A DNA stretch of 64,000 nucleotides from the NCBI RefSeq assembly GCF_016195855.1, contig NZ_JACPYU010000025.1, positions 36,953-100,952 of the forward strand. Direction: 5' to 3'. The notes under the pieces are model-generated. The model saw nothing but the letters and a program-made list of their open reading frames with translations, was not told the DNA's origin and made no database searches. Shown here one piece after another: positions 38,098 to 41,814 of the stretch (position 1 is the first letter of the stretch; each line of letters begins with the position of its first letter). Made by a program: the position numbers and the translations under genes. This DNA is from Aquabacterium sp. GTDB lineage: Bacteria > Pseudomonadota > Gammaproteobacteria > Burkholderiales > Burkholderiaceae_C.

Positions 38098-38805
38098 ATG
38101 ACGAACGCCGACCCCCAAGAACTCGCCAAATTCAGCGATCTGGCCCACAAGTGGTGGGACCCGGAAAGCGAATTCCGCCCCCTGCACGAGATCAACCCCC
38201 TGCGCCTGGACTGGATCGACCAGTTGGCCGCCATCAAGGGCAAGAACGTGGTGGACGTGGGCTGCGGCGGCGGCATCCTGGCTGAATCCATGGCCCGCAA
38301 AAGCGCCAATGTGCTGGGTGTGGACCTGGCCGACAAACCGCTGAAGGTTGCCCAGCTGCACGCCATGGAAGCCGGCGTCGCCAACATCGACTACCGCAGT
38401 GTGGCCGCCGAGGCCCTGGCCGCCGAGCAACCCGGCCACTTCGATGTGATCACCTGCATGGAGATGCTGGAACACGTGCCCGACCCCTCGTCCATCGTGC
38501 AGGCCTGCTTTGACATGGCCAAGCCGGGCGGCTGGGTGTTCTTCTCCACCATCAACCGCAACCCCAAGGCCTTCCTGTTTGCCATCGTGGGTGCAGAGTA
38601 CATGCTCAAGCTGCTGCCCAAGGGCACGCACGAGTTCGCACGCTTCATCCGCCCGGCCGAGCTGGCCCGCTGGATCCGCGAAGCCGGCCTGGACCTGGTT
38701 CAGTTCAAGGGCATGGAATACAACCCGATCACCCGCCGCTACTGGCTGTCGGGCGACACCAGCGTGAACTACCTGGTGGCTTGCCGCAAGCCCCTGGCCT
38801 CGTGA
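38098..38805 (+). CDS. ubiG: Bifunctional 3-demethylubiquinol / 2-polyprenyl-6-hydroxyphenol methylase
   Basis: The enzyme carries out both O-methylations in ubiquinone synthesis using S-adenosylmethionine. It has 235 residues (E. coli 240) and class I methyltransferase motifs: [16 protein letters not shown] (motif I), [15 protein letters not shown] (motif II) and [12 protein letters not shown] (motif III). The N-terminal [30 protein letters not shown]-like region is typical of UbiG. The start at 38098 fits; the open frame upstream lies inside acoR. The stop overlaps the gph start (TGATG), a ubiG-gph pairing common in Burkholderiales. Confidence 0.95.
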
Positions 38806-39518
38806 TGGGCGGCGGCACGAGCCTGTCGGCTTCCTTCAAGCTCAACGCGATCCGCTGGGCCTGCCCGCCCACCGCGGTGCTGTTCGATCTGGACGGCACC
38901 CTGGCCGATACCGCGGGCGATCTGGGTGGTGCGCTGAACCAGTTGCGCGTGGCCCGCGGGCTCGATCCGCTGCCGCTGGACGTGCTGCGCCCTTATGCCT
39001 CGGCAGGTGCCCGGGGCCTCATTGGCGTGGGGCTGGACATCCACCCCGGCGATCCTGAATTCGAACCGCTGCGACTGGCGTTTCTCGACGCCTACATGCG
39101 CTGCCTGGCCGACACCACGGTCCTGTTCGATGGCATGAGCGAGCTGCTTTACGAGTTGAGCGCGCGCGGTTTGAAGTGGGGCATCGTCACCAACAAACCC
39201 CACCGCTTCACCTTGCCGGTGATGGAGGGCCTGGGCCTGCGCGAAGACGCCGCGGTCATCATCAGCGGCGACAGCACCGCCCATGCCAAGCCGCACCCAC
39301 TGCCCTTGCTCACAGCATGTGAAGAGATGGGCGTGCCGCCCGCGTCGGTGCTGTATGTGGGTGATGACCTGCGTGACATCCAGGTGGCGCAGGCGGCTGC
39401 GATGCCCAGTGCGGCGGCGCAATGGGGTTATATCGGGCACAACGGTGACATCAGTGAGTGGGGCGCTGACGTGATCGTGGCGCAACCGCTGGATTTGCTG
39501 GCGCACTTGCCTGCTTGA
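38805..39518 (+). CDS. gph: Phosphoglycolate phosphatase (HAD family)
   Basis: The protein has 237 residues and HAD-IA motifs: motif I VLFDLDGTLADTAGD, motif II GIVTNKP, motif III lysine in HAKPHPLPLL and motif IV VGDDLRDIQVAQAA. It removes phosphate from 2-phosphoglycolate formed by oxygenation or DNA repair. The ATG at 38805 overlaps the ubiG stop, so the pair is cotranslated. After the stop the DNA is non-coding until the EPS operon terminator. Confidence 0.88.
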   Translation: MGGGTSLSASFKLNAIRWACPPTAVLFDLDGTLADTAGDLGGALNQLRVARGLDPLPLDVLRPYASAGARGLIGVGLDIHPGDPEFEPLRLAFLDAYMRCLADTTVLFDGMSELLYELSARGLKWGIVTNKPHRFTLPVMEGLGLREDAAVIISGDSTAHAKPHPLPLLTACEEMGVPPASVLYVGDDLRDIQVAQAAAMPSAAAQWGYIGHNGDISEWGADVIVAQPLDLLAHLPA

Positions 39519-39598
39519 GGTTGATGGCTGGTGGGGGCATCGTCGTCAACGGTGCCTGATGCTGGTTTCGCGCGTGCGTGTCTCGTGCGTGAGAAGGC

Positions 39599-39890
39599 GC
39601 GCTTTGTCGAGGGAGCGCGAGGCGGGGGCTGAGCCAGCATCCGTCCAGGCTTCATGTTGACGGTCCCGCTTTGCAAGCGGGACTGCCCTGCGATGCGCGC
39701 AAGGAAGTGGCGCCGGGGAACTCGCTGCAGGGCCCACGGCCCTTACGCTCGAACAACCCCGGCGAGTTTGAGTACGAAGCACGCTGCGCGTGCCCACTTC
39801 CTTGCTGTGCTTCTCGGCGCCAACAAGGCGCCCAGCCAGATGCCGACTCAGCCCTTTTCCGCCTCGCTCGTGGCATGCCCAGGCTCCGGT
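39599..39890 (+). repeat. Structured intergenic repeat element, copy A
   Basis: This non-coding stretch is repeated in inverted orientation at 39987-40275. It can fold into hairpins at 39663-39683 (9-bp stem, TGC loop), 39729-39743 (6 bp), 39779-39793 (6 bp, TGC loop) and 39816-39832 (6 bp), plus a 12-bp closing stem (39699-39710 with 39794-39805) and an inner stem (39719-39725 with 39762-39768). All these stems are perfect. Short open frames through it give only low-complexity Arg/Ala/Ser translations shared with copy B and are not genes. Together with copy B it fills the 840-bp gap between gph and manC. Confidence 0.8.
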
Positions 39891-39986
39891 CCTGACTAAT
39901 CGACGAATCAGGCTTTGTTGATACCGCCACCCCTCGCACATGCACATGCACTCACCGCGCGCCGCTTCGCCCATTGCGCCCACCCG

Positions 39987-40275
39987 CAGCCGTGGCGACG
40001 CGCAAGCGGGGCGGCCAAAGGCTGAGGTGGTGTGCGGTGGGGCGCCTTGGTGACGCCGAGCAGCGCAGTGGCAAGGTGGGCGCACGCAGTGCGCTTCGTG
40101 ATCTGACTCGCTGGCGTTGTTCGAGCGCAGGGGCTGCAAGCCCTGTAGCGAGTTCGCCAGCGCCACCTTGGCACGAGCAGCACAGGGCAGTCCTGCCGCA
40201 GGCAGGACCGTCAACATGAAGCCCAGCCGCACGCCAACTCAGCCTTTGGCCGCCCCGCGCCCCCCGACAAAGCGC
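39987..40275 (-). repeat. Structured intergenic repeat element, copy B (inverted)
   Basis: Read on the minus strand this aligns end to end with copy A, from GCGCTTTGTCG to GGCTGCGG, sharing blocks such as TTCATGTTGACGGTCC, GGACTGCCCTG and CGCTCGAACAAC. The hairpins recur at 40190-40208, 40130-40144 and 40080-40094, and the closing stem pairs 40163-40174 with 40068-40079 (one mismatch). Substitutions relative to copy A fall on both sides of the stems. The arms are separated by about 95 bp (39891-39986) with no recognisable feature. Confidence 0.8.
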
Positions 40276-40290
40276 CTCAACCCACACATG

Positions 40291-40319
40291 AAAAAGCCAC
40301 CGCATCAAACGGTGGCTTC
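40291..40319 (-). terminator. Rho-independent terminator of the EPS operon
   Basis: On the minus strand AAGCCACCG and CGGTGGCTT form a 9-bp stem with a 7-base loop, followed by TTTC. It lies 41 bases after the manC stop at 40360. Confidence 0.8.
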
Positions 40320-40359
40320 TTCATTCACGCAGAACCAAATCTGCAAAAAAACCGAGCAA

Positions 40360-41814
40360 TCAGGCCGAACGCCCATAGTTGTCCTGGAAGCGCACGATGT
40401 CATCTTCACCCAGGTAGCTGCCCGACTGCACCTCGATGATCTCCAGCGGGATCGTGCCCGGGTTGACCAGGCGGTGCACCGTGCCCAGAGGGATGTAGGT
40501 GGACTGGTTCTCTGACAGCATCAGCACCTTGTCGCCATTGGTGACCTCGGCCGTGCCGCTCACCACGATCCAATGCTCGGCGCGGTGGTGGTGCATCTGC
40601 AGGCTCAATGATGCCTTGGGCTTGACCATGATGCGCTTGACCTGAAAGCGCGGGCCCGAGTCGATCGAGTCATACCAGCCCCAGGGGCGGTGCACACGAC
40701 GGTGCAGCGTGCCTTCCGTGCGGGACTTGCTGTCCAGCGTCGACACGATCTTCTTGACGTCCTGGCTGCTGTTGCGGTCGGCCACCAGCACGGCATCCGG
40801 CGTTTCCACCACAACCACGTTGTCCAGGCCCACAGCGGCCACCAGGCGGCTCGTGGCATGCACCAGGGTATTGCTGCTGTTCTGGAACAGCGCGTCGCCT
40901 TGCGAGGCATTGCCCTTCTCGTCGTGCTCGCTGACCTGCCACACGGCATCCCAGGCCCCCAGGTCAGACCAGCCCGCATCCAGCGGCACCATGCGCACCA
41001 CGAAACCACTCTCGGGGTGCGACGGGCACTGCTCCATCACGGCATAGTCCACCGACTCGGACGGCACGGTGGCGAACTCGGCCTTGCCCGGACGCACGAA
41101 CTGCGCGTCGGTTGTGCGCACCGCGAAGGACTCGCGCGTGGCCTTGGCGATGTCGGGACGGAAGTGCTCCAGCGCTGCGAGCCAGCGTGATGCCTTCATC
41201 ACGAACATGCCGCTGTTCCAGAAATAGCCGCCATCGGCCACATAGGACTTGGCCGTTTCCAGGTTGGGCTTCTCGACGAAAGCGGCCACGGCGCGTGCGC
41301 CATTGGCGTCGGTGGCACCCGTGCGGATATAACCAAAGCCGGTTTCGGGGCGATCCGGCGTGATGCCCAGGATGACGATGTCGCCATTGGCCGCGGCACG
41401 CACGGCGGTCTGCAGTGCTGCAGTGTAGGCCGCTTCATTGGTGACGGTCTGGTCAGCGGGTGTGACCACCAGGATGGGGTCGGCGCCATCGGCCGTGGCC
41501 TGCAAGGCAGCCAGGGTCACGGCGGGCGCGGTGTTGCGGCCCACGGGCTCCAGCAGCAGCGAAGAAGGCTCACCCTTCAACTCGCGCAGCTGGTCCAGCA
41601 CCAGGAAGCGGTGCTCCTCGTTGCCCACCACGCAGGGCTTGCTGACCTCGATGTCATCCGCACCCAGGGCCTGCAAACGCAGGTGCGCCTGCTGGAACAG
41701 GCTCTGGTTGCCTTGCAGCACCAGGAACTGCTTGGGGTACAGCGCACGCGACAGCGGCCACAGGCGGGTGCCGGAACCACCGGCCATGATCACGGGAAGC
41801 AAAGCGTATTTCAT
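40360..41814 (-). CDS. manC: Mannose-1-phosphate guanylyltransferase / mannose-6-phosphate isomerase
   Basis: The bifunctional enzyme supplies GDP-mannose for exopolysaccharide. It has 484 residues: an N-terminal nucleotidyltransferase (PVIMAGGSGTRLWPLSRALYPKQF; VEKP and YFWNSGMF motifs) and a C-terminal type II phosphomannose isomerase cupin (HRPWGWYDSID, LSLQMHHHRAEHWIVVSG, LGTVHRLVNPG). The ATG at 41814 is preferred to the TTG at 41820. It is the last gene of the leftward EPS operon (52 bases after galE) and is followed by a terminator. Similar proteins are called AlgA, XanB or CpsB depending on the polysaccharide. Confidence 0.93.
   Translation of the reverse strand: MKYALLPVIMAGGSGTRLWPLSRALYPKQFLVLQGNQSLFQQAHLRLQALGADDIEVSKPCVVGNEEHRFLVLDQLRELKGEPSSLLLEPVGRNTAPAVTLAALQATADGADPILVVTPADQTVTNEAAYTAALQTAVRAAANGDIVILGITPDRPETGFGYIRTGATDANGARAVAAFVEKPNLETAKSYVADGGYFWNSGMFVMKASRWLAALEHFRPDIAKATRESFAVRTTDAQFVRPGKAEFATVPSESVDYAVMEQCPSHPESGFVVRMVPLDAGWSDLGAWDAVWQVSEHDEKGNASQGDALFQNSSNTLVHATSRLVAAVGLDNVVVVETPDAVLVADRNSSQDVKKIVSTLDSKSRTEGTLHRRVHRPWGWYDSIDSGPRFQVKRIMVKPKASLSLQMHHHRAEHWIVVSGTAEVTNGDKVLMLSENQSTYIPLGTVHRLVNPGTIPLEIIEVQSGSYLGEDDIVRFQDNYGRSA

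Follow-up and report, generated by a model that had tools for sequence, protein, structure and literature searches.

The closest described systems in overall organisation are the REP, BIME and REPIN repeats. In the accessible passages of PMC3116915 and PMC2817692, these are dispersed, non-coding palindromic units that lie outside genes and occur in inverted pairs. A single REP measures 20-40 bp (PMC3733652, available part). According to the accessible part of PMC1525189, insertion sequences of the IS110 family enter REPs specifically, and IS110-type elements are guided by bridge and seek RNAs (available excerpts of PMC11208160 and PMC11187229). The Beta-proteobacterial repeat element (BRE), found via a detected small RNA, is dispersed in Comamonadaceae and Bordetella. 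As described in the available part of PMC3110155, full-length copies in Bordetella span 75-91 bp, frequently lie in tandem and differ in number, and no inverted pair is described there. Two candidate structured motifs have been reported as well. The Burkholderiales-1 motif, a candidate structured RNA from Burkholderiales, is listed with a question mark and no Rfam number in the accessible part of PMC2864571. The MRSC-65-2 motif, in the available passages of PMC11109978, is a covarying, single long stem with a UYCCGG repeat that is multi-copy, often with dozens per genome, and whose RNA or DNA form is left open.

In this study, we focused on a paired repeat in a 64,000-nucleotide stretch of Aquabacterium sp. 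DNA (the window, G000:C3:36953-100952, from a genome of 4.88 Mb in 29 contigs). An initial annotation of the window had claimed that compensatory base changes preserve the same hairpins in two copies of an element at 39663..40208. A literature search over mostly freely readable texts gave no description of this repeat family among the matches listed, which comprised BRE, candidate-RNA surveys and general REP/MITE papers; queries with literal sequence words returned nothing.

Results

The element is about 677 bp long and occupies the spacer between two convergent genes, which we take to be gph-like and manC-like (Table 1). Its two arms, each about 280 nt, align as inverted repeats over 213 nt (72%) and 43 nt (79%), carry matching GCGCTTTGTCG ends and flank a centre that is variable in Aquabacterium. 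Hairpins 1, 3 and 4 of the initial annotation are present in both arms and lie within the extent it gave, but its limits were too narrow, since the element runs on to the GCGCTTTGTCG ends. No gene was called within the element by a simple purpose-written gene caller, and the mechanical open reading frames that overlap it are at most 228 amino acids long. A sigma-70 scan of positions 39480-40400 returned no promoter-like site.

Table 1. Positions of the element, its parts and its neighbours in the window.
Feature	Position	Strand or orientation	Basis or remark
Whole element, two inverted arms and matching GCGCTTTGTCG ends	39599..40275		Sequence, inverted repeats, own-genome copy alignment
Arm A	39599..39889	Better-folding strand - (centre to gph)	nhmmer arm model, wobble asymmetry, MFE z
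Arm B	39976..40275	Better-folding strand + (centre to manC)	nhmmer arm model, MFE z
Centre, flanked by both arms	39890..39975		Sequence, own-genome copy alignment
Structured core, arm A	39654..39829	-	R1, G000:C3:76606-76781, E 5.2e-36
Structured core, arm B	40044..40217	+	R1, G000:C3:76996-77169, E 4.2e-37
Hairpin 1, arm A, GTCCCGCTT-TGC-AAGCGGGAC	39663..39683	-	A1 columns 66-86; pairs 70-82 and 73-79 significant
Hairpin 1, arm B	40190-40208		Position by eye
Hairpin 3, arm A	39729-39743		Position by eye
Hairpin 3, arm B	40131-40143		Position by eye
Hairpin 4, arm A	39779..39793	-	A1 columns 190-212; pairs 192-210 and 193-209 significant
Hairpin 4, arm B	40080-40094		Position by eye
gph-like gene (presumed)	38802..39518	+	3' end faces arm A
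manC-like gene (presumed)	40360..41814	-	3' end faces arm B
Terminator-like hairpin AAAAAGCCACCG..CGGTGGCTTCTT, gap between element and manC	40291..40321	-	By eye

An nhmmer search gave 198 arm hits from 110 stretches, namely 115 full-length strong, 46 full-length weak and 37 partial hits. Only the 115 strong full-length arms, from 15 Aquabacterium genomes, entered alignment A1; the 46 weak and 37 partial hits were excluded. RNAalifold predicted 71 pairs on this alignment. The predicted arm fold is closed and branched, with an outer stem, a junction that bears hairpin 1, a long stem and a second junction that bears hairpin 4 and a nested hairpin. Covariation was assessed on the 115 sequences (278 columns, 2564 substitutions on the tree) by a purpose-written test that is R-scape-like and distinct from R-scape, in which Fitch substitutions on a FastTree tree were re-placed randomly in 60 simulations. 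At E<=0.05, 21 of 37,675 column pairs were significant. Twenty of these belong to the 71 predicted pairs. The remaining one, 97-231, keeps the register of helix pair 99-229 and lies two positions outside it. In this tree-aware test, 51 of the predicted pairs stayed below significance. At least one kept double change was found in 58 of the 71 pairs, and across the 115 arms the hairpin 4 pair 192-210 occurs as GC in 62 and as AU in 53. The covariation is real and the structure is under selection, as the initial annotation had proposed from two copies; neither an absence of covariation nor a placement of substitutions independent of the stems was seen. Its further claim, that structure and not primary sequence has been selected, holds for the structure but goes too far for the sequence. 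Twenty-five columns are invariant across the 115 arms, some of them unpaired (e.g. AACTC), and by eye the words GAGnAGCGCAG, TGTTTGAGCG and GAGTT return in the forms from other orders.

Several other copies are found at one and the same site across 2-4 species. Arms at such shared sites were compared 25 times, and some of these comparisons are not independent of each other. In total, 1461 pair cells were unchanged and 67 were broken, and 168 double compensatory changes were counted against 47.8 expected if the two sides changed independently. The same-site partner was the closest of 114 arms in just 5 of the 25 comparisons, which suggests that copies may exchange modules. Such exchange can by itself produce linked changes, so these data indicate that the fold is kept in place, or that the copies are homogenised by exchange, or both.

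The paired columns showed a marked strand asymmetry. On the gene-sense strand, A·C mismatches outnumbered G·U mismatches by 206 to 29 when the doubtful pair 54-248 was set aside and by 206 to 126 when it was included. Counted per pair, 40 of the 71 lean to A·C, 8 lean to G·T and 23 tie; the arms at shared sites gave 87 A·C-type and 13 G·U-type cells. Since an A·C on one strand is a G·U on the other, the outward-reading strand stays paired more often, and the better-folding strand therefore reads outward, antisense to the gene ends. The MFE was lower on the outward strand in 96 of 115 arms. In the window, arm A had an MFE z of -7.3 on the minus strand against -4.8 on the other strand (computed on 39597-39889), and arm B -6.2 on the plus strand against -5.1. 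The unpaired bases of the outward strand are 58.5% purine. In other genera and orders, this strand had 94 G·U against 12 A·C, and 85 against 10 in a second set, in model-fitted alignments that may favour G·U; without the constant U·G pair 114-161 the 94 falls to 58 (against 12). A strand-biased mutation process may be an alternative source of the asymmetry.

Placement was analysed for the 93 Aquabacterium elements with both neighbours known, after exclusion of 23 at contig edges. These lie between convergent genes in 62 cases, codirectional genes in 28 and divergent genes in 3. The full set of neighbouring gene pairs in these loci and in the window comprises 88, 219 and 61, respectively (Fisher p 2e-26 and 2e-5). 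Of the 93 elements, 90 follow the end of one or both neighbouring genes, and 127 of 131 arms start within 166 nt past the end of an upstream gene that points at them. Outside the genus, 23 rows (L237 contributes two) comprised 6 convergent, 17 codirectional and no divergent pairs. Gene pairs there as a whole numbered 21, 109 and 22, so that convergent sites were not clearly enriched among these 23 rows. All 14 syntenic relatives have the gph-manC spacer without the element, with the gph ortholog beside manC. In G021 an element follows gph as well, so the site may be ancient, with the element lost from other genomes. Either two gains or several losses could account for this, and we dropped the idea of a certainly recent insertion at the window site.

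The arms are joined in a highly regular manner. All 66 two-arm clusters of Aquabacterium with known neighbours share one arrangement, while 27 of the 93 elements have a single arm. Close pairs outside the genus share this arrangement, and L217, the only locus with neighbouring arms in one direction, has an extra arm. Some arms lie 1.5-3.3 kb apart (L074, L177 and L237); together with the single arms, this suggests that the unit may at times be something other than the pair. The initial annotation had treated the two halves as copies of one hairpin set. Both do carry the hairpins, but they are not equal copies, because 8 of 10 complete pairs in the window's own genome join an A-type and a B-type arm, in either order (exceptions L023 and L044). 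The types come from cutting the arms into four clusters by their outer ends, and the split is missing at two or three clusters. The outer parts have an identity of 0.65 within an element, compared with 0.88 for the best arm elsewhere. The gap from core to core is variable in Aquabacterium, and it is 104 bases in 6 of 6 pairs of G155 (with two more single arms) and 105 in 8 of 9 pairs of G227 (with four more). These near-constant gaps correspond to about ten helical turns. Three shortened arms (L026:2945-3100, L131:1427-1585 and L042:3003-3070) look like products of the loss of whole hairpin domains; two of them lack one common inner block (model positions about 93-198), and the third keeps the outer part only.

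The repeat is widespread. A 261-base piece of arm A matched 57 places in its own genome at E<=1, the weakest of them doubtful. In an initial DNA search, matches came from 24 of 61 genomes, every one of them Aquabacterium, and the exact arm pattern occurred in 20 stretches, 16 from Aquabacterium sp. and 4 from Leptothrix sp. A covariance model, R1, was built with 174 positions from 44 of the 56 non-redundant cores listed; both window cores belong to its seed, so their matches in Table 1 arise by construction. With R1, whose E-values are rough, 38 arm matches were found in the own genome (E<=1e-4). Within Aquabacterium, 25 of 42 genomes had arms and 17 had none detected at the same threshold. 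The family sample was positive in 175 of 299 genomes and 89 of 141 genera (E<=0.001); at most nine candidates were scored per genome, so that copy numbers are at least those counted. In the class sample, 22 of 369 genomes matched (E<=1e-5), 19 of them from other orders.

The other-order matches are weaker and shorter, with a best E of 3.5e-11. A second arm lies close by in nine stretches from five genomes, with the same facing in all nine, and the further stretches have one arm only or distant arms. The nearby second arm in its constant facing and the sequence words that persist by eye give credit to these weak matches. Across the 46 R1-aligned matches from outside the genus, in an alignment fitted to the R1 structure, 95.7% of cells were paired, compared with 28-43% (maximum 42.9%) when the partners were slid. 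Double changes occurred in 51 of 55 pairs, and none of 500 shuffles scored as high on any of five measures.

Other-order arms (L215, L218, L250-L269) have a shorter core of about 120-150 nt, followed outward in several cases by an AT-rich hairpin, CCTTTCTTTTGGTTACTTTTCTTTGG..CAAAGAAAAGT. A similar hairpin occurs without an arm-model match in Pasteurella multocida (L270, about 1140-1560) and Ilyobacter polytropus (L272, about 1500-1550), and in Pasteurella a palindromic stretch is flanked by a left and a right AT-rich hairpin that point toward each other. The family may be wider than the arm-model matches. Plasmids carry the repeat as well: a Variovorax paradoxus plasmid has an arm pair between convergent genes, and a Comamonas odontotermitis plasmid has a match, by blastn only, between codirectional genes. 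The centre of the Variovorax pair (L271:2260-2390) contains a CCCTCTCCC..GGGAGAGGG repeat, and the same part of the query matches plasmids of Azospirillum, Enterobacter and Rhizobium. No blastn match was obtained for the L226 element against plasmids and phages or for the window element against plasmids, and two sequence patterns found nothing in viral contigs.

Rfam 15 scans at gathering and permissive thresholds gave no match on any arm core and none to an integron attC site, a group II intron or a retron RNA. Weak permissive rows (E 0.16-2.3) fell at or past the element's edge, such as Thr_leader at 40245-40325, RNAI over the hairpin beside manC and Leu_leader outside the L218 arms. One scan at the gathering cut-off yielded one tRNA.

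The contigs of the own genome break within arms at one fixed point (L022, L032-L040). Four left and six right junctions carry identical foreign ends, after CCCTCTAACT or before CGCTGCGCGG-type sequence, and a fifth left end stops short. At the right junction, 44 residues match the NCBIfam IS110 family RNA-guided transposase with an E-value of 3.6e-5, a match that falls far short of the curated cut-off. These residues had no Pfam hit, and PF02371 had no match in the own genome. The body of the insertion sequence seems to have been lost at the contig breaks. The repeat is parasitised by an IS110-type insertion sequence, which enters the arm at a single site. Our searches found no mobilising gene for the arms themselves. 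An autonomous element between the far-apart arms was considered and rejected, because no transposase was recognised by eye among the open reading frames listed.

Discussion

The element shares with REP, BIME and REPIN repeats its inverted pairs, although some elements are one-armed, its extragenic position near gene 3' ends and, as far as the accessible part of PMC1525189 allows the comparison, its targeting by IS110-family elements. It differs from them in size and shape. A REP is a short palindromic unit, whereas each arm here has its 71 predicted pairs in several branches and is joined to an arm of an unlike type. Like BRE, it is a dispersed repeat; BRE is set apart from the arms by its description, in the available part of that report, and not by sequence. 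Both the arms and the Burkholderiales-1 motif are candidate structured RNAs of Burkholderiales, and that motif, from what the accessible part of its report gives, could be an earlier sighting of this repeat. The MRSC-65-2 motif resembles the element in its covariation, copy number and open choice between RNA and DNA, but in the available description it is a single stem in place of a branched arm pair.

On balance, we regard the element as a non-autonomous, BIME-like paired repeat that acts as folded RNA or single-stranded DNA through a trans factor, and we hold this reading with modest confidence. The repeat would be comparable to a giant BIME, dispersed and non-coding, with two unlike arms head to head, and would settle just past gene 3' ends. 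The two arms are probably inherited together and spread together as one unit. Since the strand with the best fold runs from the centre outward, the most likely active form of the element is a folded single-stranded nucleic acid. This may be an RNA transcribed outward, antisense to the ends of the adjacent genes, or the same strand as single-stranded DNA, and a trans-acting protein would recognise the fold. The initial annotation had offered a structured RNA or a DNA hairpin recognised by a protein, and these are still the right pair of options. More tentatively, the arms may belong to a previously undescribed class of structured RNAs (or single-stranded DNAs) that are paired head to head. They would occur in several orders of one bacterial class, spread and persist as a pair at gene ends, and need an undescribed recognition factor.

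In Aquabacterium, the strong bias toward gene 3' ends and convergent pairs would also be expected of a host device, such as a two-way transcription stopper or a protector of mRNA 3' ends, that is kept as helpful to the cell. The copies at the same site in 2-4 species, whose fold is kept by double changes, point in the same direction. However, by eye a terminator-like hairpin already lies between arm B and manC, and a similar one is present in 7 of 14 gph-manC spacers that lack the element. The terminator scan of 39480-40400 did not pick out this hairpin and flagged no terminator-like site at all. The strand that folds better runs antisense to the end of the neighbouring gene, and no arm was detected in 17 of the 42 Aquabacterium genomes. 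We consider a host device of this kind unlikely.

An inverted, hairpin-rich pair at gene ends, with a strand preference in its fold and IS110-type targeting, resembles REPs and would fit a giant REPIN, a single-stranded DNA element moved by an HUH/Y1 transposase (RAYT). Contigs G002:C94 and G004:C6 each carry an arm and, about 4 kb away, the Y1 transposase gene of that genome. The presence of Y1 does not track that of arms over 42 Aquabacterium genomes, however (12 of 25 with arms, 10 of 17 without; p 0.54), in contrast to RAYT-linked REPs. One genome, G025, has 36 arms and no Y1, and in the own genome no arm lies within 1.5 kb of the Y1 match. RAYT is thus unsupported as a necessary partner, and this mode of movement appears improbable.

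The matching terminal inverted repeats, the lack of a called gene inside and the empty orthologous sites are features of a MITE, and the element might be what is left of the ends of a classical cut-and-paste transposon, its fold a by-product of the long inverted ends. We give this explanation equally little credence, because the covarying pairs fall within the individual arms and belong to a branched fold, and the outer parts of the arms are only 65% alike. No clear target duplication was seen by eye at the window copy, where the gph-side flank is too diverged for placing the junction. Chance hairpins, which are common in GC-rich DNA such as this region, can be dismissed in view of the tree-aware covariation, the MFE z of -4.8 to -7.3 and the excess of pairing over slid partners in the model-fitted alignment from outside the genus.

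A branched fold of about 280 nt, maintained by compensatory changes and matched in more than half of the sampled family genomes and in other orders, that has no Rfam match would mark a major omission from the catalogue of structured nucleic acids. With the covariance model the family can be searched for, and the strand asymmetry indicates which strand to probe. If the paired repeat is mobile, it points to a new way of moving structured repeats; if it is functional at gene ends, it would be a new type of 3'-end element.
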